Below are positions 9,825 through 34,436 of a DNA stretch of 64,000 nucleotides, piece by piece. Each line of letters starts with the position of its first letter. Position 1 is the stretch's first letter. The position numbers and the translations under genes were made by a program. A model generated the notes under the pieces. That model was not told where the DNA came from, did no database searches, and was given only the letters and a program-made list of their open reading frames with translations. The DNA comes from Prorocentrum cordatum. Taxonomy: Eukaryota > Sar > Dinophyceae > Prorocentrales > Prorocentraceae. The stretch lies in assembly GCA_963575745.1 (NCBI GenBank), contig CAUYUJ010015826.1, positions 230,001 through 294,000 on the forward strand, given 5' to 3'.

Positions 9825-9826
<2 letters not shown>

Positions 9827-9827
9827 C

Positions 9828-11370: not shown

Positions 11371-11379
11371 TCCAGTTGG

Positions 11380-12004: not shown

Positions 12005-12154
12005 TTAAGTCGGGCCTGTCCCTCTACAGGGAGGAATATTCAACAATAGTCAGAAAATTGTATGTTTGAGTTTTGTTTGAGAATTTTTGTTTGACTATAT
12101 ACATGTATACATATTTCTTGCAAAATCCGCCTGTAGGGGGACATGCCCGACCTC
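12005..12154. mobile_element. TTAA-ended MITE, copy 2
   Basis: Left TIR 'TTAAGTCGGGCCTGTCCC', right 'GGGACATGCCCGACCT'. It lies 125 bp after copy 1 in the same orientation. No coding capacity. Confidence 0.85.
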
Positions 12155-12330
12155 AGAGTACTTCTCTCTTCTCTCTCCCTGACCCTCTCTGGAAGATGCT
12201 CCGCCCTCAGCGCTCGTCACTTCCTCCTGGAGAGTGCGCGGGCCCAGGGTGCTACTTCCCGGGAAAGGGCGTGGGCCCAGGGTTCTCTTTTGGAGGTTTC
12301 TTTTTGGAGTTTTCCGCTCGATGAATAACG

Positions 12331-12800: not shown

Positions 12801-12837
12801 TTCAGGGGGGTATCTACATGATGGTTTTTGCAACGTG

Positions 12838-12965
12838 TTTTCACGTGTCCAGGCCACGGAGGGGGGTATCTAAGATGGTGGTCCCGCGCTGGAACCATTG
12901 GCTTTCACGTGTCCAGGCCGCCCAGGGCGGTATCGAAGACGGTGGTCCCGAGTTGGAACCATAAA
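12838..12965 (+). repeat. ~63-bp minisatellite, first block
   Basis: About two copies of a unit with 'TTTCACGTGTCCAGGCC' and 'GGTGGTCCCG...TGGAACCA'. The main block is at 14038-14385. Confidence 0.85.
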
Positions 12966-13104
12966 TTATACGACCACCCTTCAGGTGATAATGAGGTTGG
13001 TGGGGGGAGAAGAACCAATTGACGGCAACTGCGATGGCGGTGATGATGCCGATGCTGGTGATACGCCCTCGAGTTGGCAACGACGCGTGGTGACGATGCT
13101 GCGT

Positions 13105-13640
13105 CGAGATCAGATTATCGATTCCATTATCGATTTCGCTATCGGTCTCACTCGATCGATCCCACCATCGCTCTCACTCGATCAATCTCACTTTTGGTCT
13201 AACTCTAGATCTCAATGGTGATCCCACTATCGATCTCACTATTGATCTCACTATCGATATCACTATCGGTCTCACTATCGATCTCACCACGAGAAACCGA
13301 CGGGACACCATCGGGACACCAATCGATCTCAATTTCGATCTCACTATCGATCTCACTATCGATCTCACTATCTCTCTCACGACCGATCTCACTATCTGTC
13401 TCACTATCGATCTCACCATCGGCCTCACTATCGATCTCACCACGGGACACTGACGGAACACCGACGGGATATCCGGGGGACACGGACGGGACACCGACGG
13501 GACACCACGGGACACCATCGGGACACCATCGGGGCACCGGTCGATCTCATTTTCGATCTCATTATCGATCTCACCATCGGTCTTACTATCGATCTCACTC
13601 TCGATATCATTATCGATCTCACAACGGGACATCGACGGGA
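13105..13640. repeat. 12-bp 'TCGATCTCACTA' satellite
   Basis: Dozens of copies of a 12-bp unit, interrupted at 13290-13320 and 13440-13530 by the GGGACACCGACG unit of the adjoining array. Confidence 0.9.
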
Positions 13641-13895
13641 CACCAACGGGACGTCGACGGGACACCGATGAGACATCGACGGGACACCAATGGTACACCA
13701 ACGGAACACCAATGGGACACCGACGGGACAGCGACGGGGCAGCCACGGAACACCAACGGGACACCGACGGGACACCGACGGGACACTACGGCGGGACAAC
13801 CCGGCCACCGCCCGCCCACCGCTTGGGAGAGGCGGACAGCGACGGGACACCACGGCGGGACAACCCGGCCACCGCCCGCCCACCGGAGAGGGAGG
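13440..13895. repeat. 12-bp 'GGGACACCGACG' satellite and tandem 60-bp tail
   Basis: A second 12-bp unit intermingled with, then replacing, TCGATCTCACTA. The tail 13787-13890 has two copies of 'CGGGACAACCCGGCCACCGC'. Confidence 0.9.
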
Positions 13896-14037
13896 AGGGG
13901 CGGTCAACGGTGGCCGTCTGCCCCCCCCACCAGCAGGGGGGCCCATAAGAGCAAGACAAAGTCAATAAAGCTACACCAGACGTGTAATGACTTGACACCG
14001 TTTCTTCGGCTGGTGATTTTCCAGGTTTCCACCGCGG

Positions 14038-14385
14038 GGTACTAACATGGTGGTCCCGAGCTGGAACCATGTGTTTCACGTGTCCAGGACACCCAGGTGG
14101 ATATCTAACATGGTGGTCCCTCGCTGGAACCACGTGTTGTCACGTGTCCAGGCCAACCAGGTGGACATCTAACATGTGGTCCCGAGCTGGAACCACGTAG
14201 TTTTACATGTTCAGGCCACTCAGGGCGATATCTAAAATGGTTGCCCCGAGCTGGAACCACGTGTTTTCGCGTGTCCTGGCCACCCAGAGGGGTATCTAGC
14301 GTGATGGTCCCGAGCCGGAACCACGTGTTTTCACGTGTCCAGGCCACCCAGGGCCGTATTTAGCACGGTTGCCCCGAGCTGGCAC
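14038..14385 (+). repeat. ~63-bp minisatellite, main block
   Basis: About six copies of 'GTGTCCAGGCCACCCAGG...GGTATCTAACATGGTGGTC...CCGAGCTGGAACCA'. Confidence 0.9.
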
Positions 14386-14439
14386 TTGTGTGTTTTCACG
14401 ACCACATGTTCGATTTCTGCACTTTGGTGGCATGTGTAC

Positions 14440-15120
14440 GTGAAAACACGCGGGTTCCTAACGCCCCAGAGCGGGGCAAGCGTGACAACACATGGGTTCC
14501 TAACGCCCCAGAGCGGGACGGCGAATGCCCCTCCCCGCTCGGCGCGTCCCTTGGCTCGTCCTCTGTCGTGTTCTTTGGTTTGTCCCTGGCGTTTTCCCTG
14601 CCCGTTCTGCGGCGCGTCGCTTGCCACGCCCCCTGACACGTCCCTTGGCGCATCCCCTAGTGCGCCCCTGGCAAATTCCGTGGCGCGTCCATGCGCCCTG
14701 CGCCCCGTGTCGTCTCGTCCCGATTCGGAATTGAGTCGGATCTTGAGCTCGAGCTGATTGAGCGTCCCACACGTTTCGACTGCAACCATGCAGGTCTGGA
14801 CCAGCTATGCGCTCAGGCAGCTCGAGCTTAAGATCCAGATAGCTCGGTCAGAATTCGGATGCCAAGGGCGACTTGATCCACAACACGCAGAGCACAACGC
14901 CATTCATTGCGGCATAACACATATCATTTCAGCACGGCACAGCAAAGCACAATCCTTGGCACGGTACATTACGATCGATACCTTCAGCATTGCAGTTGCT
15001 TGTCGCCCAATCAGGTGCCTTCAGAACATAACCATGCTTCGCGTTTCTAAATTCCTTCCGGTTTCGTGGGTCGATCATGTTCCCGAGATGGGCGCCAGCC
15101 CAGGGTCCTTGTTTAGTGGG
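14440..15120 (+). repeat. Dispersed repeat E, long copy
   Basis: Composite of GCGTCCC minisatellite (14535-14690), 'CGTCTCGTCCCGATTCGGA', an A/C-rich part with 'CAGCACGGCACAGCAAAGCA' and the terminal part ending 'TCGTGGGTCGATCATGTT'. An inverted copy with all parts in reverse order is at 49190-49720. No gene is seen. Confidence 0.75.
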
Positions 15121-15257
15121 TAACCATGTCGCCCCCTGGTGCCATACTCGAAGAGGGCCAGCGAATTAATGTTCGACAGCTAACGAGGTGAGGTCACATT
15201 TTGGACCCCTGCTCTCCACAGAAAAAAAAAAAGAGTGCGGAGCGCTTCGCGCAGAAG

Positions 15258-15493
15258 TTTTCTTCCCCAATCAGTGCTTGCACTGAAGGGGTCCTGGCGG
15301 AAATTGAAAGATTTGGCGAAAGTTTCCCACCGATTTTGGTGGCCGGCTGGGTTCCCGGGTTCCCGCTTCCGGGTTCCCGGGTTCCTGGTTATTGGTTCCG
15401 GGCCGAATTCGGTGGGTTCCGGGTTCCCGGGTTCCGAGTCGATCTCCTTATCGATCAAAACATCCATTGATTGGGGTTTTTCTCTGGTGTTGT
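15258..15493 (-). repeat. Dispersed repeat F, inverted copy
   Basis: Reverse complement of 8552-8785, including GGGTTCCCGGGTTCC repeats and the terminal 'GGGGTTTTTCTCTGGTG'. Confidence 0.8.
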
Positions 15494-19030: not shown

Positions 19031-19055
19031 TATTACCTAACAGCGTAGACTGATA

Positions 19056-19094
19056 CTTTGATCGTCGGGTGGGTGTAAGTGCGGTAAGAGCGTT
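19056..19094 (+). repeat. Left terminal inverted repeat
   Basis: 39 bp beginning CTTTGATCGTCGGGTGG, matched by 33230-33268 on the minus strand with one difference at base 18. A subterminal word 'GCTAAGTCGATG-GGGCTG' (19344-19362) also recurs inverted at 33085-33102. Confidence 0.92.
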
Positions 19095-19480
19095 GTACAT
19101 CCGATGAAATCGTTTCAACGAAGATGTATGTAGGTTCATGCTAGTTGACCTCACATATTCAACATATATAAAATATCGAACTTCGCATTCATCTACTTAA
19201 CGTTTTGTTAGATAAGTATATTCAACAACATACCATACATACTACTCACAGAACCATCCATCTTATCAACTGAGCTATCGGGTACCACTGCCAAGATATA
19301 TCGATACATACACCTCAACATACCCAACTTAGTAGCTAAGTCAGCTAAGTCGATGTGGGCTGTCCGATTCGGTTAACCCGAAATTTGCATAACTTTCTAT
19401 GTTTTGCATGTTTGTTCTTGATATTGCTATGTTTCGGGAAAAAACCACAAAAAACGTTTTAACAACTACAACACAACAGT
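19095..19480. other. AT-rich left subterminal region
   Basis: Conspicuously AT-richer than the rest of the window, with no ORF. It is likely to hold transposase-binding or end-structure sequence, matching the AT-rich right end (33000-33230). Confidence 0.6.
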
Positions 19481-19804
19481 TTTTCAGGACAGGGCGCCGC
19501 AGGTCGACGCGCCGAGCCGCCCTCAGGACGCCTGCGGGGCGCGGAGGGGAAGGGGGGAGAGGGAGAGGGGGGGGGATCAACTATTCTTCAAACTGCCTCC
19601 CCTCGGCGGCCATCACCGCCTCCCCTCTCCTCTCCTCGTTGTCGGCGGCCAGCCCGCCCCCGCTCCCTCCTGCCGCCTTCCCTCCCCGAGCCCGCCTTCC
19701 TTCTTCGGCGGCATATCCGCCCCTCCCTCCTGCACCTCTCTATCGAAGGGCGGCGCATCCGCCAGCGGCATATCCGCTCTCGCATGCGCTCGTTTTTTCC
19801 TTTT

Positions 19805-22217
19805 TCACGTGATGGCGAGCACATAGCCATCGTCCTGTAGTCGCCGATAAGCCGCCCAGGCTGGCGGGATCAGCTCGGCGGGCATCACGGCGACGTCGCC
19901 GCGCGGCCGCCACAGGGACGCGCCTGGGCATGGCGCGCGCACCCATTCCAGGGTCTCCACCAGCAGGTAGCTGGCGGCGCCAGCCTGCGCGCAGCAATGC
20001 ACGATGTACGCCTCGCCGTCGCCCAGGAGAAAATCCTGAGGGCAGCAACGCCTCGATTTTTGGGGGGGCACACGCATGTGCACCCCTAAATACCAAGGTT
20101 GGTTGCGCCGTCTGTCCTGGCTGCCGTACGTCTGGCCGTCGATCGACGCCTCTCTGCTGGTCCACGTTTCAGCCCTGCGGAGGGGTTCCTCCTCCTCCTC
20201 CTCCTCCTCCTCCTCCTCCTCCTCCTCCTCCTGGCGGCGAGCCGCCTCGGCGGCAAACCGCCTTCCCCTCTCCCAGCCCATCTTCCTCCACAAAGGGCAT
20301 GCAAGGTTGCGCCCCGAGTGCCCGAACGTACTGTCCAGCTCTGGCGTGCGCCACGCTTTGGCGCGGGAGCGCGGCGCCTCCTTCGCTTCCTCCAGGAAGC
20401 AGGCGAGCATCGCCGTCAAGGCCGACCGCTCGAAATTCTCAGGGTTGTCGATCTCCTGCGACCTGGACCGAAGCAGGTTGTGCTTCCGCTCGAGTACGAA
20501 GGCGTCCAACCAGATGCCGTCCTCCGCAGGCTGGTCGGGGACGTGCCACAAATAATGATGCTTCGGCTTGATCAGGGCTGGCCCGTGCGCGGCTTTGTGC
20601 AGCGCCAAGGAAATCGAAACGGCCTTGGTCCAGACAGCTATCAAATTCGGCACGGCGCCGATCCTCAGGACGTAGCCGAACCGCCTGCCACCTAAGCGCT
20701 CGAGGATGCGCGCGGGCCGACGCGGTGCATCCTCGAACGCGCAGGCCAGCGTTTGCGTTTCAGCTGCGGCCGCATGTCCTTTTGCCCTGCATGTACAATT
20801 CGAGCATCTTCGCCATCGCCTCGAACGACCGCGCCGCAGCGTTCGCCATGCCGCTGGGACGCAGCTCTGTGTGCACCCAATGACGAATCAAAGGGAGCAC
20901 GGCCAAGCAATCCGACGCCTTGCCCACGAAGTGCGACGCCTTGCAGGTCGCTTTCTTCCGAGCCACGCTGAACAGAAACGCTGGCGGTTTCCTGCCGCGT
21001 CTGCCAGTCCGCCACGCCGAGCAGCGATCCCGCCACGTTCCCCACGCGTCGGGGATGACATCCCTCACCGCCTTGAGGAGCGCAAAGATTTCGACCTGCA
21101 AGGTCCCGCCGCTGGCCAGCATGGTATGCATGGGGTCCCTCACGTATGTGCTCGGCGGCGCCACCGTCCGCAACGCCTGGCACGCCACCAGAGAACGGTC
21201 ATCCAGAGTGATGCCCATTGCCGTCTCCTTCGGGGGCCGGAACATCAGAAGGGAAGGAAGGGGGGGACATCAGAAGGGGATCGATGGAAATGTTTTCCTC
21301 CCTGGCTCCAGTCTCTCGATGTTCGCTCTGGTTGTCGTGTCCCGCAGCGACGCCAAATCATCATATTGCTGCAAAAACTCGTCTGACGACAGCGGGTCAA
21401 AGCGCGACGAGTCAGCGCACCAGAGAGGCACGAGGTAATCATCGTCGTCGTAGTCTGCAAGACATTCCGCCTGATCCAGCACAACGTTCTTGCATTGCAA
21501 GCACGGTCTCAGACCTGCAGCGCCCTTGGTGCAGAATGTCTCTTTTCCAGCCGCCTCGTCTGCAATCAAGCGGTGGAACTTGGCGAAAAAGTGCACGCCG
21601 CCGATTGGCGCACCGTGCTCCGACAGACTCTCTGGGCCCAGGAACAGCGCGCGAAGCAATGCCCGCGCCACGGCCGAGCCGCCGATGCTCTTCTTCACGA
21701 CGACGCGCAAGGTGCCGATCGGCAGCCACGCAACCTCCTTCTGCAAGAAGGATCCGAACTCGAGGAAACTCGCATACACCGCGAGCTGATTCCGACGATT
21801 ATCTATCTTCAAGGCGTTGCCCACGCCAATGTCGTCGTAGTACAGCAAAAGCCTCCACGGCCGATCGCGCGACACAGGGAAACGGCGCATCGCTTCCCAA
21901 AACATTGAACTCCAGAGAGGGCAGTCCGACAGGAGCCTCGGCATCAGCCGATGCGGCAGCGCCACGCTCCATCGGAAAGGCGTGCCGATCTTGGGCTGCA
22001 GCCGCACTGCGCTGATGAGATCGGCCACGGATGCCGTCTGCGATCGCTGCATGGCCCGAGCGCTCACGTCTATAGCATCGCCCGCGTCGTCGCCATGGCC
22101 AAGCGCAGTCACGATTCGCTCGAGCAAAGCCGCGGACACGCCGCGCAGGGCCAGACACTGTTGCAGTCGAGCCCGCTGCTCCACCTGCTTGTCCACCTGC
22201 AGGGCGCGTTTCCCCAT
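19805..22217 (-). CDS. DDE-transposase-like protein (Tnp2/CMC- or KDZ-like), three exons
   Basis: Model: exons 22217-21327, 21227-20786 and 20691-19805, joined by two GC-AG introns (21228-21326, 99 bp; 20692-20785, 94 bp), giving 739 aa. Motifs in order: 'LLYYDDIGVGN' (126-129 YYDD, candidate first acidic residue), 'RLIADEAAG' (~216), 'GLRPCLQCKNVV' with CxxC at 239-242, 'RDPMHTMLASGG' (Asp328, His331), 'IKPKHHYLWHVPDQ' (~484) and 'DAFVLERKHN' (Asp506, Glu511). The D..D-MH..E order resembles Tnp2-type transposases. A Glu run near 575 comes from a CCT microsatellite. I chose the ATG at 22217 because the frame upstream only translates GGCGG hairpins and Ala/Arg-rich DNA. Without the introns the frame has a TGA at 21270, so decay is the alternative. 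The protein probably moves the element. Confidence 0.65.
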
Positions 22218-22764
22218 TGCGCCGACGCCCGCGCGCGGGAGGGGCGGGGGCGGGGGGCAGCGCGAGGCCCAGCGCGGTTGAGAAAAACGAATTGCAGCCA
22301 GAGAGACGGAAGTGGAGGCGGGAATGGATCGCGGGGCGGAGTAGCCGCCGAAGGGCATGGCGGTGTAGCCGCCTGAAGGGTCGGGAGGGGCGGCGTAGCC
22401 GCCGAAGAGCGTGGGGGCGAGGGGGCATGGGGGGAGGGGGGAGGGGGGAGGGGGGTGGGTGGGGGAGATTGCGGAGGCGCGAAGTGAGCGTAGCAACGGA
22501 ACTTGCAAGGGAGATTTCTTTTTCTCGCACGCAATTTCGAGCTTGAGTTTCAAGCTCGGGTTCCAAGCCGCCAGCGCTCGGAGACGGGCGCGGCTGGCGG
22601 CTCGAGCTCGGGGCGGGCGCAGCGCGGGACGGGCGCGGCGGCGGCTGGCGGCTCTTAGTGCGGGTGCGCGTGCTGCCTCCAACTCCTCATCCACCTCCTC
22701 CTCCTCTCCTCATCCTGCCTCCTCTTCCTCCTTATCCTCCTCTATCGGCCCAGCCGATCGCCGC

Positions 22765-23061
22765 TCAGCTCTCCTGGTGCGGCTGGCGGCAGAAGAACCG
22801 AATGCCGCCTGGGATGTCCTGCACCATCTGCTTCGACATCTGGCACAGCATCTTGCCGCGCTCCTCGGTGCGGCGCGCCTCCTCCATCATGCGCCGCGCC
22901 TTGTCGATGAGCATCTGGCCCTTGATGCCAACGGCGCGTGCATGGCGGCAACGATTGCGCCACTCGATGAAGCGCACCACGATGGTCGCCCAGCTCCACG
23001 CACTGCCACCCGTGATGAGCTCGAAGTCATCGACGTCGTACTTGTCCGCGATGCTCGCCAT
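22765..23061 (-). CDS. Small helical ORF, 98 aa, preceded by a spliced-leader relic
   Basis: ATG at 23061 opens 'MASIADKYDVDDFELITGG', followed by a Trp/Arg segment, a charged helix 'KARRMMEEARRTEERGK' and the end 'FFCRQPHQES'. It is intronless with strong G/C third positions. A DinoSL-like sequence ends 44 nt upstream on the same strand. No family is recognised; the middle could form an amphipathic helix. It lies between the transposase gene and a repeated non-coding block. Confidence 0.45.
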   Translation of the reverse strand: MASIADKYDVDDFELITGGSAWSWATIVVRFIEWRNRCRHARAVGIKGQMLIDKARRMMEEARRTEERGKMLCQMSKQMVQDIPGGIRFFCRQPHQES

Positions 23062-23104
23062 GGCGGCGCAAGACCGCGAAGGGGCACGACCTCGAGCGGC
23101 TCCA

Positions 23105-23125
23105 CTTGAGCCACAAAGACTACGG
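23105..23125 (-). other. Degenerate DinoSL relic (18 of 21 matches)
   Basis: On the minus strand it reads CCGTAGTCTTTG-TGGCTCAAG, differing from the leader at three positions without gaps. It sits 44 nt before the ATG of the 98-aa ORF, the distance expected of a 5' UTR. It suggests that this part of the transposon came from a trans-spliced mRNA. Confidence 0.55.
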
Positions 23126-23183
23126 ATGAGGGGTGGGACGGTGGCAGATCATGTCATTGGGAAACGCGAGAGAACGGTGCGAG

Positions 23184-23800
23184 CGCGGTGGGCAGCAAAG
23201 GCGGCATCTCCGCCAAATGAAGGCAAGGCGGCATGTCCGCCAAGGGCTTGCGAGAGTGGAAAGGCGGCATCCCCGCCAAACGAAGGGCTGCGGTGGTAAC
23301 GAGTGGGGTGGCGATGGCAACGAAGAAATGTTTTTTTTTTTTTCAACAACAATAACAATTGTACGAAATCACACACCTCGTCATGAGCGGCCCAACTGCC
23401 GCCCCTGCCAAGGAGCTGCTTCGCCTCTGCTTCGTCTCCGACCGCCAATCGATGGGATTCCCAACGGTGTCGCTGGCCTTCGCGAGCCACAGCTCGCGCG
23501 GTAGGGTCTCGGGCAGGACGCGCTCGAGCAGGAGGGAGTTATGCAAGCGCTTCGCCTCGCCAAGTGAGGCATCGGAGCGCGATGAGCAGCAAAGGCGGCA
23601 TCTCCGCCAAATGAAGGCAAGGCGGCATGTCCGCCAAGGGCTTGCGAGAGTGGAAAGGCGGCATCCCCGCCAAACGAAGGGCTGCGGTGGTAACGAGTGG
23701 GGTGGCGGTGGAAATGTTGTTTCACCAACAATAACAATTGTACGAAATCACACACCTCGTCAGGAGCGGCCCAACTGCCGCCCCTGCTCACGAGCGGCCC
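23184..23800. repeat. Direct duplication, two ~210-bp copies with three hairpins each
   Basis: The block 23190-23405 recurs at 23584-23790: the same three GGCGG-CCGCC hairpins with identical spacing, then 'CAACAATAACAATTGTACG' and 'CACACCTCGTCA-GAGCGGCCC'. Between the copies lies a fragment like the 'GNPIDWRSE' gene. Confidence 0.85.
23409..23590 (-). pseudogene. Fragment of a GNPIDWRSE-type protein
   Basis: Minus-strand frame reading '...LLLERVLPETLPREL...' then 'GNPIDWRSE', the same nine residues as in the intact gene at 28182-29226 (DNA around 23446 matches 28687 closely). The flanking parts of that gene are absent, and the frame ends in the duplicated hairpin block. Either an exon of an unmodelled gene or a truncated paralogue. 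Confidence 0.5.
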
Positions 23801-23878
23801 AGCGGCCGCGGCTTATTCGGGTCCTTCTCCACCTTTTTCAGGCCGTACTTCATGATGTACTGGGCCACCATGGGGCGC

Positions 23879-25817
23879 TCAGGTGCTGTGCTTCTGCGCC
23901 TCCTTGAGCATCCCCGCGATGGCCCTCGCCGCCGAGCTCGCATCCTTCTGGATGCTGATGGCCTCGTCCTGCGTGATCGTCAACGCCACGCCGCTGTGCA
24001 CGCGCTTCTGCGCCACCGCCTTCATGACTGCCACAGACTTCCTCGCCGCCTTCGCGTTCTTCACAGCCCATGACGGCACCTTGTCCGCCTTCTCATGCTC
24101 GAGGTACCCGTCCAGCTCTGTCTCGAGCCTCGTTGCGGTGCCGATCCACTTCAGCGCCAGGTTTTTCTCCTGCGTCTCCTTCTTGGCCTGCTCGGCCTTC
24201 TCCCTCGCTTCCTGTCGCCTCCGCTCCTTCTCAGCGTCCTTATCCCTGCGGAGCCTTCGGGGTTGTCCGAAAATGACAACACTTCGAGCCGAGCGAAATC
24301 AATAACCCGATCCGAACCTGAAGAGTTGAACGGAAACCGAAAACGAATGCGAAGCCCAGGCGACACCCCTGCGTTGAACCCCCAAACGGCCTGCTCTTGC
24401 TCCTGTCCTTGCTCTTGCCGCGGCTCTTGCTCCTGCCCTTGCGGCGGCTCTTGCTCCTGTCGCGGTCGCCGCGCGAGCGGCTCCTGCTGCGGTTGGTGTC
24501 GCGACGTCTGTCGCGGCGTCTGCTCCTGCTGTCGCGCCTGCCCCTGCTGTCGCGCCTGCTCATGCTGCGCCTCCTCCTCCTGCGGCTGTCAGACCTGCGC
24601 CTGCGGCGCCGCCTGGATCTGGACATGTCGCTCTCGTCGCTTCTGTCGCCCTTGTCGCCGCCGTGCTCTGCGACGCCCGTCGAGGCCGCTGCCCGCGGGC
24701 CGCTCTGCTTCGCCTGCGTCCTCTTATCGGTGTACAGCTCGTTGCGCACTGCGGCCTCCACTGTCTCGCTCCAGGCCGCCTCCAATTGCGGCCTGTACGT
24801 CCACTCCCCGAGATCAGGGTTCCACCTCTTATCCTGCACATTATCTTCAATCTTTTTCGCGTCGAAGCCGTCGTGCGCCCACTTCCTCAGCGGAAGGTAC
24901 TTGCCACCCTTGCGGACGCGCTCCTCCTCCATCCGTTGGACAGTGATTGAGCTGACCACGAAGGCTTCAATGCGATCGAGGTTCGACAGCCCAGGATCTT
25001 CTGCCAGATCCTTGTAGAACTGCTGCTTGAACTCACTCTTCATTTTGGCGAAACACTTTGGCGGCCACTGTCCGAACCTCCGAGAAAGGCGCACCCCGTT
25101 CGTGTTGCACGCGTCGCACTGGTAAGTCGACTGGCCCTTCGCCCTGATCCTGTAGTTGCACTCCTTTGCCGTGCGACAGCAGCGGTTGCAACGCACGATG
25201 CTATGCCCGATGCCATGCACATCCACGAACTCCCCTACCTGGGGAGCGCCTGCTGGCGGATCGTCCTGAGCTGCCTCCTCCTCCTCCGCCTGCGGCGCTG
25301 CCGCCTCGGGCGAGCGCTCCTCATTCTCAACCTTGGCTACCGCGCCCTGCGGTGGAGCCTCTTCCTCCTCAAGCTCACGCTTGGCACTCTCAAGCTCATC
25401 CTGTTTGACGCCGAGCTCGGAACCAATCTCGTCGCCGCGCTCCTCGGAGCCCGATGCCGCCTCTGACGCTGCGTCGTCCGGCTCTGGTGGCAAAGCCGCT
25501 GCGCCCTGAGGAGGCAGTTCTTCGGCGGGAGCTGCGGCTGACGCAGCTTTGCGAGCCGTCCTCAACGCTGCGGGGTGCTTACCTTTGCCCTTGCCTTTGC
25601 TTTTCCCGCGTGCCTTCGGCGGCCCTGCGTCGGTCAATGCGAGCGGCGGCACAAGCTGTCCAGTCAGTGTCATCTGCGTCCCCGATAGCTTAGCTTTCCC
25701 ACGGGGCTTCGCTGCGGGCGCCTTGGTCATCACTCCCTTGTTTTTCGGCCTGGCTGCTCCGAACATCACTGCCAGAGAATGCTGCTGGTGATCTTCAGCG
25801 GGCGGCGTCCCCGCCAT
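23879..25817 (-). CDS. RS-rich zinc-finger-like protein of a dinoflagellate-expanded family, two exons
   Basis: Exons 25817-24391 and 24245-23879, GC-AG intron of 145 bp (24246-24390) flanked by GCAGG repeats; 597 aa. In order: start MAGTPPAEDHQQHSLAVMFG, Lys/Gly-rich stretch (70-80), acidic coiled region (100-190), Cys motif C210..C213/C214..C220...C234xxC237, 'LSRRFGQWPP' (244-253), a helical region, an Arg/Ser-rich segment (~400-478) and, after the intron, a charged helix-rich tail ending KEAQKHST. Splicing keeps '...KSR|DKDAEKERRR' in frame. The Cys block plus 'FGxWP' plus RS arrangement is one I recall as very common in dinoflagellate predicted proteomes, function unknown. RS-rich tails often mean nuclear RNA-linked proteins; that is inference. 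The ATG at 25817 follows a GGCGG hairpin in the 5' UTR. Confidence 0.7.
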
Positions 25818-26154
25818 GGCGGCGTGACCGCCTTGGCACGCGAGAAGCCGCGCGTCGCGCGCGGCCCTGATGCCAAGATGAGCTGGACGCGAAGCGATGA
25901 CGAAGAAAACGCGCGGTAAGTGAGGCGGGATAGCCGCCAGCGGAATAGCCGCTTCAAAGGTGGAGGGAGGGGTGGAGTGAGGTATGAAGGGGGCGGCATA
26001 TCCGCCAGCGGACTCGCCGCTTGAGAGGGTGCAGGGGCGCGGCGAGGGAGGCGGATTGGCCGCCAGCGGACTAGCCGCTCGAAGCGTGGCGGACGCACGA
26101 GGTGATACGGATACTGAAATGAATTGCGCGCAACATGACAACCACACAAAATTG

Positions 26155-26310
26155 ACATCATGTTATCATATGTTATCATATGTTATCAGGCGTGTGATAA
26201 CACCATGCTAACACATGATAACACCTGATAACATGTTATCAGGTGTTATCAGGTGTTATCAGGTGTTATCAGGCGCGTGATAACATATGCTAACATATGA
26301 TAACAGCCAA
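26155..26310. promoter_or_regulatory. Array of TGTTATCA/TGATAACA motifs
   Basis: About 16 copies of the octamer TGTTATCA or its reverse complement in 150 bp, in blocks that fold back on each other. It lies about 340 bp upstream of the start of the RS-rich gene and about 680 bp after the end of the GKW gene. It could be a binding-site cluster, an origin-like cruciform or a simple satellite; no factor is implied by sequence alone. Confidence 0.5.
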
Positions 26311-26389
26311 CGTTTTTTTGCCAGTGCATGGCGGCGGCGTAGCGGCACGTCCGCCGAGTTAGTTAAGCGGAGCAGCAGGGGCGGAGCGG

Positions 26390-26550
26390 CGCCCTGCGCT
26401 ACCGACCGCGGACGGCGCCGCGTGCTTCAAACCGCTGCCTGAGCGGCAGCGAAAAGACGGGCGAGCGCGGAAGCGAGGCGCGCTGCCTGAGCGGCAGCGA
26501 AGAGACGGGCGAGCGCGCGCAATCGGGGCGCGCTGCCTGAGCGTCATCAT
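26390..26550. repeat. ~65-bp tandem repeat, 2.5 copies
   Basis: Unit 'CGCTGCCTGAGCGGCAGCGAA' (in two parts) plus 'AGACGGGCGAGCGCG'; the first part is itself palindromic. Confidence 0.85.
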
Positions 26551-26554
26551 ATGC

Positions 26555-26985
26555 AAGGCGATGGGGGGGTGGGCGGACATGGCGATGCAGCACATCCAGA
26601 AAATAGCCGCACTCATTCTTATGCGGATGCAGTTTTCTCCACCCAGCCCTTTTGCCAAATCCCATCCAACCGCCCACCTGTCTTATCCGCCGAAGTTCCC
26701 TCACCTTCCTCCCGCTCCGCTCGTCCACTCGCCCCCATATCGCCTTGCATTGGGGGACGGCTACTCGGCCGCCTGCGTGGCCAAAATTCACCTCGGCGTG
26801 GCGGCCTTCACGAATTGAGTGCGGATGGAGTGTGTGGGGGTGTCCTAATTTGTTCTGACACAGGGGTGTGGATTGAAATTGCGTTGGAGGAGTGGGAGGG
26901 GGGCGTGTAGGGCCGACGCGTCGCGCCGCCTGCGCGAATGAGGCTACTGATGCTGAGGCGACATCAGTGCTGCCAGCCGTGCACC
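26555..26985. other. Intergenic, no convincing gene
   Basis: Open frames exist on both strands (plus 26561-26818; minus 26399-26791), but neither has motifs or a consistent third-position bias. Confidence 0.4.
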
Positions 26986-26990
26986 TGCAC

Positions 26991-27629
26991 CTACGAGGTC
27001 GCGTTGCGCACCAGCCAGCTCGCGAGCACGTCCTCGCACTCGGCGATGCATTGCTCCTCTTGGCGGAAAGCGTTCACCGCGCGCTCCGCTATCTGGGCGC
27101 ACATCTGCGTCGCAGTACGCGCGCGGCGCAACGAGTCGAGCACAGCCTGGCACTGGGTGCCGTTGAGCACCACGATGCTATCGGGCGACATCTGGCTGGC
27201 CAACGCCGTGGACATCCTCATGCCCGCCGTGGCTGACGAAGCTGCGCCTGACGATCCGCTGCCCTCCGAGAACGCGTCCTTCAGCTGGTGCGAGCGCTCC
27301 ACGCGGGATTGTGGAGGGATTGGCGCCAGCTCGACCTTCGGCGCCCCCTTGCGCCTTTTGGCGGAGCCCCAGTTGGCCTTCTCCTCCTCCCATTGGCGCC
27401 ACTCCGCGAGGTCGACTTCCCACGAGTCGGCCTCGAGTGCGACAGCAGCTACCTCCGCTTCGTCCTCGCTCAAGTCGTGGTACGGCGACACGCGAAGGTG
27501 GTTCACCAGCTTGTTCCTGGCCTCCTCCACTGTCTCTCCCTGGAACCACTTGCCGCCCCTTTTGCAGCTGCTGCTCTGTGGGCACTTGAAGCCGAACATG
27601 ACGGTCTTCTCGCCCTGCTGGCCTGCCAT
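26991..27629 (-). CDS. Cys/His 'GKW...HL...YH' protein of a dinoflagellate-expanded family, single exon
   Basis: 212 aa from ATG at 27629 to TAG at 26991. The N-terminal domain has C16, C22, GGKWF (25-29), 'EEARNKLVNHL' and 'SPYHDLSEDEA' (H44, H51), a CxnCx3GKW...HL...YH layout resembling a small zinc-binding fold. A Trp-rich acidic middle (WEVDLAEWRQWEEE) and a basic KRRK patch (91-95) follow. The C-terminal half 'LNGTQCQAVLDSLRRARTA' and onward is predicted helical. I recall this two-part architecture as recurrent in dinoflagellate hypothetical proteins. Function unknown; the basic patch suggests nuclear location (inference). GGCGG hairpins crowd its upstream region. Confidence 0.65.
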   Translation of the reverse strand: MAGQQGEKTVMFGFKCPQSSSCKRGGKWFQGETVEEARNKLVNHLRVSPYHDLSEDEAEVAAVALEADSWEVDLAEWRQWEEEKANWGSAKRRKGAPKVELAPIPPQSRVERSHQLKDAFSEGSGSSGAASSATAGMRMSTALASQMSPDSIVVLNGTQCQAVLDSLRRARTATQMCAQIAERAVNAFRQEEQCIAECEDVLASWLVRNATS

Positions 27630-27774
27630 GGCGGCAGGGCGAGAAGTGCACGGCTAGCGCAGGGGCGGCGTGGGGCGCGAGCCTGTGCGCGCCTAGATTC
27701 GAGCCGATACAGCGTCCCAACAACAAAAACATACATGTGTAAGAGGCGCGGTGGCATCGCACATTTCGGGATGC

Positions 27775-28025
27775 CAGCAGGCGGCGGCGGCGGTTTAGCC
27801 GCCAATGGAGGGCTCAGGGCGGCGTGGCCGCCAATGGGCGGTTTAGCCGCCAATGGGCGGCGTGGCCGCCAATGGAGGCTTCAGGGCGGTTTAGCCGCCA
27901 ATGGGTGGCTCAGGGAAGGACTGGTGTTTTTTTCCAACCGCATAGAACAAACCCGATGCGCCGATGCTCGTATCTGAACGGCGGTTGTCCGCCAGGCGGG
28001 GGGAGGCGGCGCGTCCGCCAATGAG
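27775..28025. repeat. Dense cluster of GGCGG-CCGCC hairpins upstream of the GKW gene
   Basis: About seven hairpins joined by 'AATGG' spacers, forming an imperfect 'GGCGGTTTAGCCGCCAATG' tandem. It covers the region 150-400 bp upstream of the start at 27629. Confidence 0.85.
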
Positions 28026-28181
28026 ATAGATCGGCAACGAAGAGAGGGGAGGAGAGATGAGATGAGACGAGGCGGGGAGAGGCGGCGCGTCATGACGCGT
28101 CAGCGCGGATAGCTGCAACTATCCGCGCTCGAATTACGGAAGCTATGCACCCCAGCCCGCTTGCAGGTCCACGCGATCACC

Positions 28182-29226
28182 CTACAAGAAGACATCTCCG
28201 CGGGCGGGCGGGCGCGGCTTCGCTGGCGGTGGTGCCATCTTGCTTGTCGGCTGCAGCCGACGCCCTGCCCTCGGCTGCACCATGCTGGGCTTCCCTGCTG
28301 GCGGCTGCCTGGTCTTCGGCGGCGGCGGCCCCATGGTCTTCGGCGGCGGAGGCGGAGCTGGAGGGTTCATATTGCCAGTCCTCCACGGCGCTTGCTGAGG
28401 CATCGTCTTGGGCAAGTTCGGCGCCATGGGCTCCCGATGCATCAGCTGAGGCTTGGGGACGTGCGCCTCGCGCACCCGCGGCGCTGCCTTGTTGCCGTGC
28501 AGCTTCGCGTACATCTCGCGCTTTGCGCCACCTCGGTTCCCCCAGCGCTTCGCATTGGCGCGCCACGCCTGGCCCTGCCACGTCTGCGGCCCGCCCATGG
28601 CGGGGCCAGGCGGGCCGCGGTCGCGGAACTTCTTGTAGTCGTACTTCATCTGGTACTCCTTGAGCACGGCGAGCACGGTCTCCGACCGCCAGTCGATGGG
28701 ATTCCCAACGGGGTCGCTCAGCCAGGCTCGCAGCTGCGTCCTGAACGCCTCCACCGCGCTGGGATGCGCCTCCACCGCCTCGGGGGGCTCTTCCACCACA
28801 GGCGTCGCGCCCCGCATGTGCGACGCGAGCTCCTTCACGAGAGCCGAGGGCGGGAAAGGCCGCTGCCGCGGGTCCCGCGGCGGTGACGTCGGCCCCCGCC
28901 TGCGCGGCGGCGTCGACGGTGCCCGCGGGTGGCGCGGGCTGCGCGATCGCGCTGGCTGCGCCGCCAACGTGGGCGCGCTGGCTGGCCGACTGCCGCTGGC
29001 GGAGGAAGACCGATCCCCTGCGTTGTTGTCCACGCCCGCAAGGTCGGAGAGCAACTGCATCGCTGGCCCGAACATCTCCTGCGCCGAATCGCCAAAACAG
29101 TTCGACCGAGAGCGGCCAGCCAGTTTCGCGCGCGATGCGCGCGTCCCTGGCTACCGCACGCGGGGCCACTTGTTTTGGCGATGCAGCTGCCTCCAACGCG
29201 TCGAACGCGCTGCCGCTGTCTGCCAT
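28182..29226 (-). CDS. Proline-rich GNPIDWRSE protein, two exons
   Basis: Exon 1 29226-29191 (12 codons, MADSGSAFDALE), GC-AG intron 29079-29190 (112 bp), exon 2 29078-28182; 310 aa. Exon 2 opens 'EMFGPAMQLLSDLAGVDNN', then a Ser/Arg/Pro-rich linker ('ARSRSPRHPRAPSTPPRRR'), a compact domain 'AVEAFRTQLRAWLSDPVGN' + 'PIDWRSETVLAVLKEYQMK', a basic Gly-rich region and a long Pro/Lys-rich tail (PPPPPKTMGPPPPKTRQ). The WL..GNPIDW..E core is a sequence I associate with dinoflagellate hypothetical proteins. The composition suggests an RNA- or nucleus-linked role (inference only). The intron carries a perfect 12-bp inverted repeat near its ends. A fragment of a related gene lies at 23409-23590. Confidence 0.65.
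29079..29190 (-). other. GC-AG intron with perfect 12-bp inverted repeat (introner-like)
   Basis: ATCGCCAAAACA at 29088-29099 and TGTTTTGGCGAT at 29171-29182 pair exactly, 9 bp inside each intron end. The splice donor is GCAGCT and the acceptor GCGCAG. An intron bounded by short TIRs is the signature of introners, introns derived from MITE-type elements. Confidence 0.6.
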
Positions 29227-29229
29227 GGC

Positions 29230-29985
29230 CGCGGCCGCAGTGCGAGGCGCCGAGCGCGACGCGGTGGCTGCGGCGCAGCCTCGGCGCGCGGGCCCCAGCC
29301 CACGCGTCGGCGCGAAAGGGGGGGGCCGACCCCGCGCGGGCTCGCGGGCACCCGCGGGCCGCGGGCTTGAACCGAAATGGAATCGGACGCGGAAGCGAGA
29401 CTTCGGGAGGAGGGGGAGGGGGTTGCCCATGGACCCATTGAAGTCTTGGAGCTCCTCGAGCCCTCGGGGGCCTCTCAGAAGGGCCCCGCTGGTTCTTGCG
29501 ACGGGGTCTCGGGGGAGGGGGCAGAGTGAGGGTGGCATTGGGAACCAGAAATATAAGTGAACTGGTGTCCCTTTGAATGTGCAGGTCTTGGTTCACTTGT
29601 TTTCGTCGTTGAACGGGCGGTGGCAACGTCGGTGCCTTCGCGCGCGCCCATGCCATTCTGGGTGAACGCCTTCGCCGTTCGAGCAGTGGGCGTCTCCCCG
29701 ACGTTAGTTGGCGTGGGATCCAGTGCCTGACAGCGGAGAGGGGGGCGCAGGGACGTGGCGCGGGGGCGCGGAGTGGGCCGATTAGGGGAGGGGGGCGGCG
29801 GCATGTCCGCCTGAAGGGCGGAGGAGCGCAAAGGGGTGGGGCGGGGGCGGCATGTCCGCCACGAGTTGGAAGGCGAGAAGGCTGCGCTACAAGGCGGCAT
29901 ATCCGCCACGAGGCGGCATATCCGCCACGACCTTTTTGTTATCCCGAGGCCGCCCCGTTGGCCTGGAGAGTTGAAGAGTCGTAGC
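29230..29985. other. Intergenic with four GGCGG hairpins
   Basis: Upstream DNA of the GNPIDW gene. Hairpins near 29797, 29847, 29894 and 29914. Long Pro/Arg frames are by-products of GC-rich sequence. Confidence 0.45.
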
Positions 29986-29990
29986 GCGAA

Positions 29991-30943
29991 TTACTCGCCG
30001 CGCGCCCTGGCGGCGAGCTCCTTCTTGACCAGCTCCTCCGCCTCCGCGATGGCCCTGGCCTCGGAGCGATCGGGCGCAACGAGGCAGCAGGGGGCGGAGG
30101 GGGCGTCGAGGCAGGGGCGAAAATGAAGAGAGCGCGGAGGAGGGCGTCGAGAAGGGCGTCGGTGAGAATCTGGCCTTGTCGGCCTCATCGCCCGCGATGT
30201 ACTTCAGGCTGACGTTGCTGCCAGGGACGCCGACCCTGCCGCTGCGGAACTGCACCTGGGGGGCGGAGCAACGATGAACAGTCGCCTGAAAGGCGGCGGG
30301 CGCGCAAACTGCGACCCCAGCGGGGCTGCTGGGAATCGCCGCGCGCGCCCGACGCCTCATCGGTGGGAGGTTCAACCCCGCTCGCCAAGTTGCGTGTGGT
30401 CTGCATCTCCCACCTCGGCTTCGCCCACTTGCGCTGCTTGTCCTTCCCAGCCGCGCCGTCCGTCTTCTTGCCCGTGGGGAGCGGCGTCTTCTTAGCCACG
30501 TTGCCCGTGGCAGGCGGCGTCGTCTTCTTTGCCGCGTTGTCATTGCCAGGCGGCGTCGTCTTCTTAGCAGCATTGCCCGTGGCAAGCGTGGGGGCCTTCA
30601 CCGCCTCGGCGTTCTTTTTCGTCTTGACCGCCTTCGTCCTCTTATCCATGGCCGCGACCATGGCCAGAGCCGCCTCCGTCGGGGTCTTCTTCAGAGAGCC
30701 TGCGGCGATGCCGACCTTCTCAGCCTTGGGCGGCGGCGTCACGGCGACGATGCCGAAGTCGGAGTCGGAGTCGAGCTCGATCGGCAGCTCATGCTTCTTC
30801 TGCTTCTTCGCCGCGCGGCTCTTGCTGATCGAGGCCGTTTGGGCGGCGGCGGTGCTCGATAACGGCTGACAGTCGGCGGGTTTGCCGCCATCGTGTGCCG
30901 CCAGTTGCTGCGTCGACGGCGCATCCGAACTCCCCGCCGCCAT
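29991..30943 (-). CDS. Lys/Ala-rich protein with C-terminal 'RSG...G..VSLKY' domain, three exons
   Basis: Exons 30943-30386, 30255-30175 and 30059-29991, with GC-AG introns of 130 bp (30256-30385) and 115 bp (30060-30174); 235 aa. It begins MAAGSSDAPSTQQLAAHDGG; 'AAKKQKKHELPIELDSDSD' is a nuclear-localisation-like stretch; 'AAKKTTPP' and 'GNxAKKT' repeats follow; then 'WAKPRWEMQTTRNL' joins across intron 1 to 'VQFRSGRVGVPGSNVSLKY', and across intron 2 to 'ADKARAIAEAEELVKKELAA'. Both joins keep frame and rebuild a W..E.TR...R.G..GPG....KY domain I recall from many dinoflagellate predicted proteins. Intron 2 is flanked by GCCAG direct repeats. ATG 30943 was chosen because the upstream frame only has a GTG. 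Confidence 0.7.
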
Positions 30944-31095
30944 CGAAAGCTGGTGGTTCGAACCTGCTCGTTCTTGCAACGGCTCCTGCGGCTGCTGCGT
31001 CTGCGAGCGGTCGATCAGCTGGATGGCTGGGTTGGGCCAGCGGCCGCCGCTGCGCGAAAGCCCCACCTGAAATCAGGCGGATCACCGCCGAACGA

Positions 31096-31147
31096 AAATA
31101 TTCCCCCCCCCCCCATCCCCCTAGGGGGATGGGGGGGGGGAATATTT
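31096..31147. terminator. Long near-perfect palindrome overlapping a stop codon
   Basis: AAATATT + C12 + ATCCCCCTAGGGGGAT + G10 + AATATTT: an inverted repeat of about 50 nt whose right edge overlaps the TGA (31147-31149) of the gene to its right. It could act as a transcript-end hairpin or be an inserted foldback. Only the structure is certain. Confidence 0.55.
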
Positions 31148-32089
31148 CACAACACGCCCTCCATCCAGGCATCCAGAAACGTACCCCGCGCCGATCCAGG
31201 AACCCACCCCTCGACCCAATACCAGGTGTCCCGCGGGGGAATGCGTTCTGTTATTCCCCGTGGAGCCGTCGGCCAGCGCCCAGAGAACGAATCGGCCGCC
31301 GCGATGGGGAGGTGCTGCTGAGGAGAGCCGCCGCCTGGGCCGTGGGATGGCTGCAGCCCGCCGCGGGCGGGCGCAGGCGCGGGCAGCGCGAGGTGGCCGC
31401 TCTTCTTCCCTGCACGGAGATTAATCAGCTTCGCAATCGTCACCATCTCGACGGGATTTATCTGCGGCGCCGTCGCTCCAACACCTGGCGGGAAGGCGTC
31501 GACGTACGTGATGGGGTACTGAGACTGGAGCCTCCCAGGCGTGATGGGGAGAGCCTGGATGCCATCCCTGGGCGGCGGCATCGTCGCCACGAGATTCTTG
31601 AACGAGGATTTCACTGTGGCCAGATATGACTGCAACAGCTCCCTCGTGATCTCGCCCGTCTCCACGCCTGTCTGCTTGCACACCAGCAACAAGAATGCTG
31701 CCATATTGGCGGCCGTCGGGCAGCTCGGATGCCTCAGGCCAAGCGCCCCGAGGTGCTCTGAGAACGCCGCCATCTTGGCAGTGAAGCCCGAATGCGGCGA
31801 GAGCACGAACTCCCACAACTGAGGCGTCAGAAATTCAATGAACCCCTCGTAGTTCTGGAGCTTCCCCCCCCTGCAGGCTGCCCGACGACAGAGCCTGCAA
31901 GAAGTCTCCCAGCTCGGACTGCGCCCACCCCACGCCGCCGCCCAAAGCAGCAAACTGCGCACTCTGGAGCTGCGACCAGCGCTGGGACGTCGCCGCCTGG
32001 ATGCAGGCAGGAAGGTGCTCCGTCGCACTGCCGCGCGCTACGAACGCCGCCCGCGCCTCCTCCAGGCGGCCTCGAAGGATGCCCTCCAT
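31147..32089 (-). pseudogene. Helical protein of a dinoflagellate-expanded family, with one frameshift
   Basis: From ATG 32089 ('MEGILRGRLEEARAAFVAR') the frame runs to '...QALSSGSLQGG'; the continuing homologous-looking frame 'KLQNYEGFIEFLTPQLWEF' starts right after a run of eight G (minus strand; 31864-31871). Seven G would give one uninterrupted protein of about 313 aa. Later parts: 'GLRHPSCPTAANMAAFLLL', 'YLATVKSSFKNL', 'PPGVGATAPQINPVEM', then a Pro/Gly-rich tail. I recall similar 'W....SP......LGLRHPSE.T' proteins in dinoflagellates. A sequencing indel is as likely as a real mutation. An upstream ATG at 32214 is out of frame and would need an intron. Confidence 0.5.
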
Positions 32090-32214
32090 GGCAGCGATGC
32101 GGCGCGACCGCGCGCCGAGCGGAGTGCGCGACTCCCCGCGCGCGCACGCCGCCCGAAGCCCTCGGAGGAGGGCTCGCCAAAAACGGATCGAGCCAACGCG
32201 CGTGCGACGGACAT

Positions 32215-32370
32215 ATCCTACTCCTGCTCTTCCTGCTCCTCCTCCTCCTCCCCCTCCTCCTCCTCCTCCTCCTCCTCCCCCTCCTCCCCCTCCTCCCCCT
32301 CCTCCTCCTCCTCCTTCTCCTCTTCCTCCTCTCCCTCCTCCTCCTCCTCCTCCTGGGTGAGGGGGGGCGC
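32215..32370. repeat. CTC/CCT microsatellite
   Basis: Imperfect CCT/CTC run upstream of the helical-protein gene. Confidence 0.9.
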
Positions 32371-33000
32371 AGGGGGGAGAGGGTGTCGAAGGGGGGGCGG
32401 GGGAGGGGGTGCCGAAGGGTGCGCGGGGGGGAAGAAGAGAGCTATGGGGGAGGGTGGGTCAAGGAGAGGCCAGGGAGGGGAGGGGGGAAAGGGGTGGGCG
32501 GCTTGCCGCCGAGGGGGTGGAAGGAGGCGGCAAAGCAAGCCGCCGATAGGGCGGTTGGGAAGAAGCGGTTTCCCGCCACGAGGAGGAGAAGGCGGTTTGC
32601 CGCCAGAGGAGGAGTAGGCGGTTTGCCCCCAGAAGGGGTAGGCGGTTTGCCGCCAGAGGAGGAGAAGGCGGTTTGCCGCCAGAAGGGGTAGGCGGTTTGC
32701 CGCCAAAGGAGGAGAAAGCGGTTTGCCGCCAGAAGGGCGGTTTGCCGCCACGGAGGGGGAGAAGGCGGATTGCCGCCATGGGGGGGGGAGAAGGCGGATT
32801 ACCGCCGACGGAGGACGAGGCGACGGAGGAGAAGGCGGTGCGCCGCCTAAGGAAAGGGGGGATAAGGGAGGGCCGAAGACACATGGATAAACATTTTCCT
32901 CCTTCCCTCCCCCCTCCCCGCGGGCATGCGCGCAGCCCGCAGCGCCGCGGCCGCGAGGTACAGCAAGTACCTGCGGCGCCTCGGTCCTGAACAACTGAAC
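32370..33000. repeat. GGCGGTTTGCCGCC hairpin array
   Basis: About ten hairpins between 32490 and 32850, mostly GGCGG-TTTG-CCGCC joined by 'AGAAGGGGTA' or 'AGAGGAGGAGAA', so the hairpin has expanded as a tandem array here. No gene. Confidence 0.85.
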
Positions 33001-33229
33001 AACAACAACAACGGAAATTCAATGGATTTCAAAAAAGTTAAGAATAAAAAATACGCAAATGATTAGCAAAAACACGAATATGTTCAGCCCCATCGACTTA
33101 GCAGAGATATCTAACTTAGTATATTACTTACATCTACACTTACAAACACCATAAGTATTGCATATGCACACATGAGATGCGCGATCAACAAGTGTACGTT
33201 CTATGGCTTAACTAAGATTATGTAAGATG

Positions 33230-33268
33230 AACGCTCTTACCGCACTTACAGCCACCCGACGATCAAAG
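33230..33268 (-). repeat. Right terminal inverted repeat
   Basis: Inverted copy of 19056-19094 with one difference. TA follows at 33269-33270. Confidence 0.92.
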
Positions 33269-33384
33269 TAGGTTTCTAGTTGACTCAAAAGAGCTCACAG
33301 ATCACTCCACAGGGGGGTCCGGGCAGGCGTTGGGAGTTGCCGGCCGGCAGGGTGCCGGGCCTGTGCCGGGCTCGTTTTTCACGA

Positions 33385-33831: not shown

Positions 33832-33906
33832 TATTACCTAACAGCGAAGACTGATAGGTTTCTAGTGGTGTCAAAAGAGAGCAGCAGATGACTCCACAGG
33901 GGGGTC
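33832..33906 (+). other. Empty insertion site matching the transposon flanks
   Basis: 33832-33856 matches the transposon's left flank 19031-19055 with one difference over 25 bp, and 33857-33906 matches its right flank 33271-33320 with a few differences. Only one TA (33855-33856) is present. This is what the target looked like before insertion. Confidence 0.85.
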
Positions 33907-33984
33907 TGGGCAGCCGTTGGGGAGGTGTTGGGGGGCCGTTGGGGGGCCGTTGGGGATTGCCGGGGAACCTCGTTTTTCGCAAAC

Positions 33985-34436
33985 AGTCACACACTTCGTG
34001 CTCTTCGACCTCCCAGAACTCCATTCTTCGACCTCCCAGAACTCCATTCCCGGGCCACATTCTGAATGCCCGGAGCCAACTGTAGGCCACTTCGTGGTCT
34101 TCGAGTTCCCAGAACTCCATTCCCGGGCCACATTTTGAATGCCCGGAGCCAACTGTAGGCCACTTCGTGGTCTTCGAGTTCCCAGAACTCCATTCCCGGG
34201 CCACATTTTGAATGCCCGGAGCCAACTGTAGGCCACTTCGTGGTCTTCGAGTTCCCAGAACTCCATTCCCGGGCCACATTTTGGATGCCCGGAGCCAACT
34301 GTAGGCCACTTCGTGCTCTTGGACTTCCCAGAACTCCATTCCTGGGTATGATTTTGAATGCCCGGAGCAAACTGTAGGCCACTTCGTGTTCTTCGAGTTC
34401 CCAGAATTCCATTCCCTGGCCACATTTTGAATGCTG
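33985..34436. repeat. ~73-bp minisatellite, block 2
   Basis: Same family as block 1, variant unit with 'GAGCCAACTGTAGGCCACTT' and 'GGTCTTCGAGTTCCCAGAAC'. Together with 33271-33900 it shows that the neighbourhood is a duplicated repeat segment. Confidence 0.9.

Follow-up and report, generated by a model that had tools for sequence, protein, structure and literature searches.

A 14.2-kb multi-gene transposon, probably autonomous and of the CMCT kind or a close outgroup, in the dinoflagellate Prorocentrum cordatum

What kind of DNA lies between two long inverted ends at nucleotides 19054 and 33270 of a 64,000-nucleotide stretch of the Prorocentrum cordatum genome (assembly GCA_963575745.1, contig CAUYUJ010015826.1, positions 230,001 to 294,000, here called the window; 60.4% guanine plus cytosine, GC)? 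We consider it very likely that this is a full-length, probably autonomous cut-and-paste dinoflagellate transposon, of the kind grouped in the CMCT clade (to which EnSpm/CACTA belongs) or a close outgroup of it, that has been through a recent burst to dozens of copies. A sequence-only reading of the window had proposed a complete multi-gene transposon inserted with target duplication, and that proposal is strongly supported by the terminal inverted repeats (TIRs), by an empty site in the window and by end pairs found genome-wide. The boundaries are as follows:

19056-33268, no strand assigned: the element in full, 14,213 bp without the target duplications of 2 bp; ten other copies measure 14,183-14,230 bp
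19054-19055: left copy of the 2-bp target duplication, TA at the window locus
33269-33270: right copy of the 2-bp target duplication, TA at the window locus
19056-19094, plus strand: left TIR, 39 bp
33230-33268, minus strand: right TIR, 39 bp, one mismatch
33832-34342, plus strand: paralogous empty site, matched by the joined flanks, with a single TA

The 39-bp inverted ends with their one mismatch are confirmed; with the edge TAs counted, the arms 19054-19094 and 33230-33270 are 41 nt long, again with one mismatch. Searched with a tolerance of 3 mismatches, a 26-nt terminal pattern is found at two places in the window and nowhere in 100 shuffles. Because the TA is the 2-bp duplication and lies outside the element, the element proper runs from 19056 to 33268. 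The claim that the joined flanks recreate a sequence still intact at 33832 was also borne out: when the outer flanks were joined in a script, 375 of 513 aligned columns were identical to 33832-34342, and across the joint the left flank agrees at 24 of its 25 bases and TA stands only once. The site at 33832 is a diverged local repeat unit and no allele; it marks the insertion point and cannot date the insertion.

Is the element confined to this locus? We searched the genome (4,128,499,153 bp in 21,875 contigs) with the terminal 17-mer, allowing up to 2 mismatches, and found 461 + 439 places, against 178 + 162 for the reversed 17-mer used as a control. The 100 places listed, all exact, comprise 29 facing pairs and 42 unpaired places, and the proposal thus survived the attempt to refute it by looking for further TIR pairs. 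Among the 29 listed pairs, 25 span 14,183-14,575 bp and four are longer (15.8-30.8 kb); none of these exact-end pairs is shorter than 14 kb, as short non-autonomous derivatives would be, altered ends not having been searched. Three pairs (C3198, C5446 and C6714; L064-L069) have exact 2-bp duplications and span 21.9-30.8 kb; these are probably copies with nested insertions, one of them perhaps a copy inside a copy. Ten pairs were retrieved whole and make, with the window copy, 11 copies of 14,183-14,230 bp, which differ pairwise by 15-61 substitutions per 14.2 kb, plus 43 blocks that differ in length. When 20 of the 42 unpaired ends were compared with the window end, 15 proved 98.5-100% identical to it over 362-403 nt and four 90.5-95.8%, and one matched for 56 nt only. 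The search with the transposase gene (G6, described below) gave 2,854 candidates, of which the best 88 were scored, all at least 99% identical, so that more diverged transposase families lay outside its reach; that with gene G5 gave 463, of which 150 were scored, 94-100% identical and, in 149 cases, without a stop. Both counts of matches are lower bounds and include the window. No related repeat was found by blastn in the rest of the window, and no relative of the G6 pieces in the viral and prokaryote collections; viral contigs held three exact terminal 17-mers, about the number that we estimate for chance. Judged by their identity, the 14.2-kb copies are the products of a recent multiplication to dozens of near-identical ones.

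The sequence-only reading had the element bordered by TA. To define the target we compared the window and all 29 listed pairs (30 in total; orientations are mixed, so CA and TG are partly equivalent). An exact 2-bp duplication is present in 24 of the 30: CA in 8, CG in 7, TG in 6, TA in 2 and TT in 1. A pyrimidine-purine (YR) step is thus duplicated in 23 of 24 cases, and the bases around the step lean to C before it (16/24) and G after it (13/24). For three of the 24 (C3187, C3280 and C6714) the match could also be read as longer. Hence the 2-bp duplication of the earlier reading stands and its TA specificity does not: TA as a required target is rejected, being found in only 2 of the 24, and is a property of the window locus. 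Tc1/mariner-type elements duplicate TA and are far smaller than 14.2 kb; they were rejected on the TA requirement, as was ESTA, and KDZ elements (Zisupton/Kyakuja/Dileera) were rejected on a required duplication of 7-8 bp against the 2 bp of the element. EnSpm/CACTA proper, which needs CAC..GTG ends and a 3-bp duplication, was rejected since the element has neither. The pairs without a 2-bp match are C6130, C9613b (with an N in the flank), C6417, C8779a, C8779b and C10202; C6130 has a 3-bp match that could be read as a 3-bp duplication. These six pairs, the near identity of the copies and the repeat-rich character of the window are what one would cite for segmental or assembly duplicates multiplied with no transposition at all. 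Against this, the flanks differ between copies and the homology is bounded by the TIR, matching 2-bp repeats border 24 of the 30 pairs, and the empty site shows a precise insertion; we regard duplication without transposition as highly improbable.

What would move such an element? The gene nearest the left end, G6, is the candidate:

19806-22217, minus strand: G6, putative DDE transposase in several pieces, its motifs read by eye
within G6, minus strand, by eye: D at 21836-21831, D at 21560-21558, CxxC at 21503-21492, HHxxxH at 20560-20543, E at 20491-20489
21231-21311, minus strand: segment of about 81 nt that may be a GA-AG intron in G6 and holds an in-frame TGA

The order D-D-CxxC-HHxxxH-E, read by eye, follows the published CMCT signature, with CLQC and HHYLWH between the second D and the last E; the catalytic residues were likewise assigned by eye only. 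The in-frame TGA is common to all 88 scored matches and to a diverged copy, C259 (about 91% identical, its left end not included). Several GC-AG or GA-AG introns would excise it in frame, and the 81-nt one is flanked by repeated bases; the TGA is likely removed as an intron. The first piece of G6 is open over 315 codons in 10 of the 11 copies and altered in one.

Among known systems, the CMCT clade (EnSpm/CACTA, Mirage, Chapaev, Transib, Plavaka, ESTA and Lanisha) is characterized by C(2)C and H(3-4)H between the second D and the last E, by duplications of 2-5 bp and, in most members, by CA..TG termini (PMC12730594). The element shares the placement of C(2)C and H(3-4)H and, with 2 bp, falls in the range of duplications; in contrast, it ends in CTTTG..CAAAG, has a dinoflagellate host and gives no detectable sequence match. 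It is by its motifs that the element would be placed in this clade. With the fungal ESTA and PlavakaA it has the 2-bp duplication in common, but ESTA duplicates TA and PlavakaA ends in TGT..ACA, whereas the element takes almost any YR step. The earlier description as far larger than ordinary elements holds against the Tc1/mariner type and not against other transposons on record: the large EnSpm elements of the alga Chondrus crispus, of 16-20 kb with 4-5 open reading frames (ORFs; PMC6431247), resemble it as large multi-ORF algal DNA transposons in another host, and the soybean CACTA element Tgmt* has 20.5 kb and stem-loop repeats proposed as TNPA-like binding sites (PMC2613891). Tgmt* is, like the element, large and rich in stem-loops; its stem-loops are subterminal, whereas those of the element lie in the gene spacers, with none in the outer 420-550 bp. 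In make-up the element looks like a CACTA-type transposon: it combines a large transposase with accessory proteins of binding-like character and with numerous stem-loop repeats.

The stem-loop repeats are those of one palindrome:

19605-32847, no strand assigned: GGCGG-N-CCGCC, 45 matches, two of which overlap another
clusters, approximately: 19605-19763, 22335-22403, 23200-23277, 23594-23671, 25801-26064, 27786-28019, 29794-29926 and 32497-32847

With a spacer of 2-10 nt the palindrome occurs 45 times in the 14,217 bases of 19054-33270 and once in the other 49,783; the form with 4-6 nt occurs 42 times inside, against a mean of 0.53 and a maximum of 3 in 200 shuffles. Near-matches at 53.8-55.5 kb were set aside, being part of an unrelated tandem repeat with units of about 500 bp. 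Each of the 11 copies has 41-42 palindromes in its body, and a single one is found in 4,444 bases of flanks. Every drawn gene start has a cluster upstream of it, G6 is also followed by one, and only 4 of the 45 sites fall in sequence counted as coding, which makes up 55% of the element (p = 8e-11). In C259, stems have changed at 3 of 370 positions, loops at 27 of 173 and the 10-nt flanks at 45 of 703. In two further diverged copies the figures are 4 of 220 for stems and 17 of 108 for loops, with 10.1% in other noncoding sequence (C5224, 9 kb read), and 0 of 140 and 3 of 65, with 7.6% (C4539, 6.2 kb read). These counts exclude gapped, overlapping, swapped-module and poorly aligned sites; moreover, a site counted as such when its stems were intact in the window copy, a choice that cuts the expected stem changes to about half, and C259 and C5224 share ancestry at least in one module, so the tests are not fully independent. 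When sites are defined on C259 instead, stems differ at 2 of 360 positions and loops at 25 of 166, and GC-matched control arms differ at 22 of 540 (p = 0.003). Because the stems hardly change in diverged copies while the loops do, we take them as putatively functional.

Function may be exerted at the level of RNA, in which case the palindromes would direct the processing or splicing of a polycistronic transcript read in one direction and would not be DNA-binding sites. All drawn genes lie on one strand with the clusters between them, the spacer varies in length (4-6 nt), and the centre of the 5-nt loop on the gene strand is A in 25 of 28 sites, all of which would suit this role; against it, the gene strand has no advantage in the stability of predicted RNA folds, the other strand giving the more stable fold in 5 of 7 clusters. 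We hold it possible but not favoured. A less probable origin is in the debris of introner-like mini-elements, a frequent component of dinoflagellate introns. Introns ended by inverted repeats are reported to be enriched in P. cordatum (PMC10666404), and the site at 31076 lies just before an AG, a possible splice acceptor. However, the exact palindrome is nearly absent from the remaining 49.8 kb and from the flanks of the copies, with one site in each, and its stems change less than loops, flanks and the GC-matched control. Dinoflagellate introners share inverted repeats in introns with this picture; they are intron-making and non-autonomous, whereas the element is a 14-kb coding element (PMC10666404, PMC9860276). 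Taking the palindromes as introner debris appears unlikely to us.

How did the genes come together? For one of them, G5, there is a trace:

22765-23061, minus strand: G5, a 98-codon intronless ORF, open in all 11 copies
23105-23125, minus strand: relic of the dinoflagellate spliced leader (DinoSL) upstream of G5, 18 of 21 bases
22418-23416, minus strand: module of G5 and relic, in whose place C259 and C5224 share an unrelated segment that has open frames

A DinoSL or its relic upstream of a coding sequence marks a dinoflagellate retrogene, according to PMC6050394, which also defines DinoSL, and this is what G5 shows: the relic lies 43 nt from the ATG, and in 20 one-strand shuffles of the window no match had fewer than 5 mismatches. 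The probable source of G5 is an mRNA that bore the spliced leader. The 150 matches scored, of 463 candidates, were all 94-100% identical, and a parental gene was not resolved among them. Since G5 matches reach down to 94% identity, its acquisition may be placed well before the latest burst. In C259, 22418-23416 is replaced by about 1.5 kb with no counterpart of G5; the substitutes of C5224 and C259 match each other at 92% across 864 nt, and in C5224 two open frames, of 126 and 97 codons, come together at a strong inverted repeat. The site exists in two states, G5 in the 11 near-identical copies and the other segment in the two diverged copies read. The inverted repeat joining the frames of the alternative gene (L092:4823-5444) could itself be an introner-like intron. 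Elsewhere in the window, at 5660-5680, genomic DNA carries an exact 21-nt match to DinoSL, the mark of a retroposed mRNA, and the host is therefore a dinoflagellate.

The remaining genes occupy the right two-thirds of the element:

30031-32089, minus strand: G1, ATG at 32089; in 9 of 11 copies an ORF of 313 codons that reaches about 31,148
28177-29226, minus strand: G2, ATG at 29226, open over 349-352 codons in 11 of 11 copies
26991-27629, minus strand: G3, 212-codon ORF; its C2H2-like match is weak (E 0.05) and misses the curated cut-off
23882-25817, minus strand: G4, CxxC pairs by eye and an Arg/Ser-rich tail, in at least 2 pieces

The frame of G1 is broken near 31,860 in the window copy and is shorter there and in C2592; the ORF 31072-30326 downstream, extending as far as about 30031, could represent either a 3' exon or a gene of its own. 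In G2 a second, overlapping frame (29150-28182) outscores the first in the middle, and an intron or use of the other frame is possible; a candidate DinoSL relic upstream (29386-29366, 5 of 21 mismatches) is weak and alone not significant. G3 is open over its 212 codons in 8 of 11 copies, shorter in two and without a recognized start motif in one, and the first ORF of G4 has 525 or 528 codons in 7 of 11, is shorter in three and lacks a recognized start motif in one; each surveyed ORF is open in some of the 11 copies. The six minus-strand start codons all stand in an ATGG context, five of them directly after CC. When codon usage was scored, with two pieces of G6 and a 1038-codon ORF elsewhere in the window as the training set, every unit came out in favour of the minus strand, an outcome that is partly circular for G6. 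Within this part of the element, a 41-nt piece of G2 coding sequence (28678-28718) is repeated at 95% at 23434-23474, upstream of G5, where a 239-bp direct repeat has one copy on either side of it, and the G3-G4 interval holds a 145-bp near-perfect dyad of TGTTATCAGG-like decamers (26161-26305).

Several observations weigh against our interpretation of the element and its parts, and we gather them here. Its termini are CTTTG..CAAAG instead of CA..TG, in 30 of 30 end pairs, although these were picked by an exact 17-mer; six of the 30 pairs have no exact 2-bp duplication; and with one mismatch allowed the palindrome becomes less exclusive, with 55 sites inside and 24 outside. The earlier label of a Tnp2-like DDE protein agrees with the CMCT motif order seen by eye, but three ORF pieces of G6 found no Pfam match at E<=1; G6 also has no sequence match in PDB, and its single-sequence fold was unusable (predicted local distance difference test, pLDDT, 35). 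Nor did the ORF pieces of G1-G6 match any Pfam family above the cut-off. Purifying selection is not detectable among the 11 copies, with 55 nonsynonymous and 22 synonymous changes (ratio of nonsynonymous to synonymous changes per site, pN/pS, 0.79, p = 0.35); these copies are too young for a test of selection. Against C259, the corresponding ratio of rates (dN/dS) is 0.95 for G1, 1.24 for G2, 1.38 for G3, 1.18 for G4 and 0.69 for the whole of G6 (p = 0.11), with 1.0-2.2 in other G6 pieces; the 0.32 of the first piece was singled out post hoc. The overall difference from C259 is 5.6% in coding and 7.3% in noncoding sequence, and there is one stop each in the drawn frames of G1 and G4 and none in G6.

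Some of these figures would fit a transposon made up of the TIRs and G6 alone, with G1-G5 and the palindromes as captured passengers that have no role in transposition: purifying selection was not found on G1-G5, C259 has the two stops just mentioned, and the G5 site holds different genes in different copies, G5 itself bearing the mark of a retrogene. Yet none of the 29 listed exact-end pairs is shorter than 14 kb, the regions of G1-G4 align in C259 and the stems of the palindromes are conserved, and we hold this reading, too, possible but not favoured. The size, the several genes and the TIRs would also fit an endogenous polinton-like virus or a virophage, and such elements are reported from a dinoflagellate (PMC12721341). 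On the other side, no Pfam match of a viral kind was obtained with 10 + 5 ORF pieces or with two whole minus-strand frames. Polintons have a target duplication of about 6 bp, against 2 bp here. A viral origin of this kind is highly improbable in our judgement.

In a cut-and-paste transposon near the CMCT clade, which is the reading that we prefer, G6 would bind and cut the TIRs and join them to a staggered YR step, while the zinc-finger-like G3 and the Arg/Ser-rich G4 would act as accessory DNA- or RNA-binding proteins. By analogy with TNPA sites, the palindrome in the gene spacers may be an element-specific site, most simply bound by an element-encoded protein. G5, for its part, would derive from a spliced-leader mRNA, placed where two diverged relatives hold another gene. 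Taken one step further, the element would be a multi-gene unit in which one palindrome, present in every spacer and read by an element-encoded protein, controls the genes or transposition, and in which the lineage that took in the retrogene by replacement later burst; this extended model we regard as doubtful.

Dinoflagellate genomes are huge and hard to engineer. In the open-access literature searched (subscription papers, supplements and Repbase were outside its scope) we found no complete DNA transposon described from a dinoflagellate. With intact ends, a known target preference and many near-identical copies, the element offers a system in which transposition, silencing and gene capture can be tested in dinoflagellates. 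What a specialist would not expect are the constrained palindrome and the exchange of the retrogene; the former poses the testable question of how a large DNA transposon regulates several genes, and the latter that of whether the exchange of a gene preceded the burst.

Three other features of the window were recorded. The 1038-codon ORF is intronless (59172-62315) and encodes a protein with two similar halves, as seen by eye; it is preceded by a DinoSL-like relic with 6 of 21 mismatches, a level that chance also gives. At 8551-15490 an inverted pair of about 194 nt and a second of 36 nt, of nearly the same symmetry, lie 6.9 kb apart and possibly belong to another element. Finally, 53260-55700 is a tandem array of lower-GC units of roughly 500 bp.

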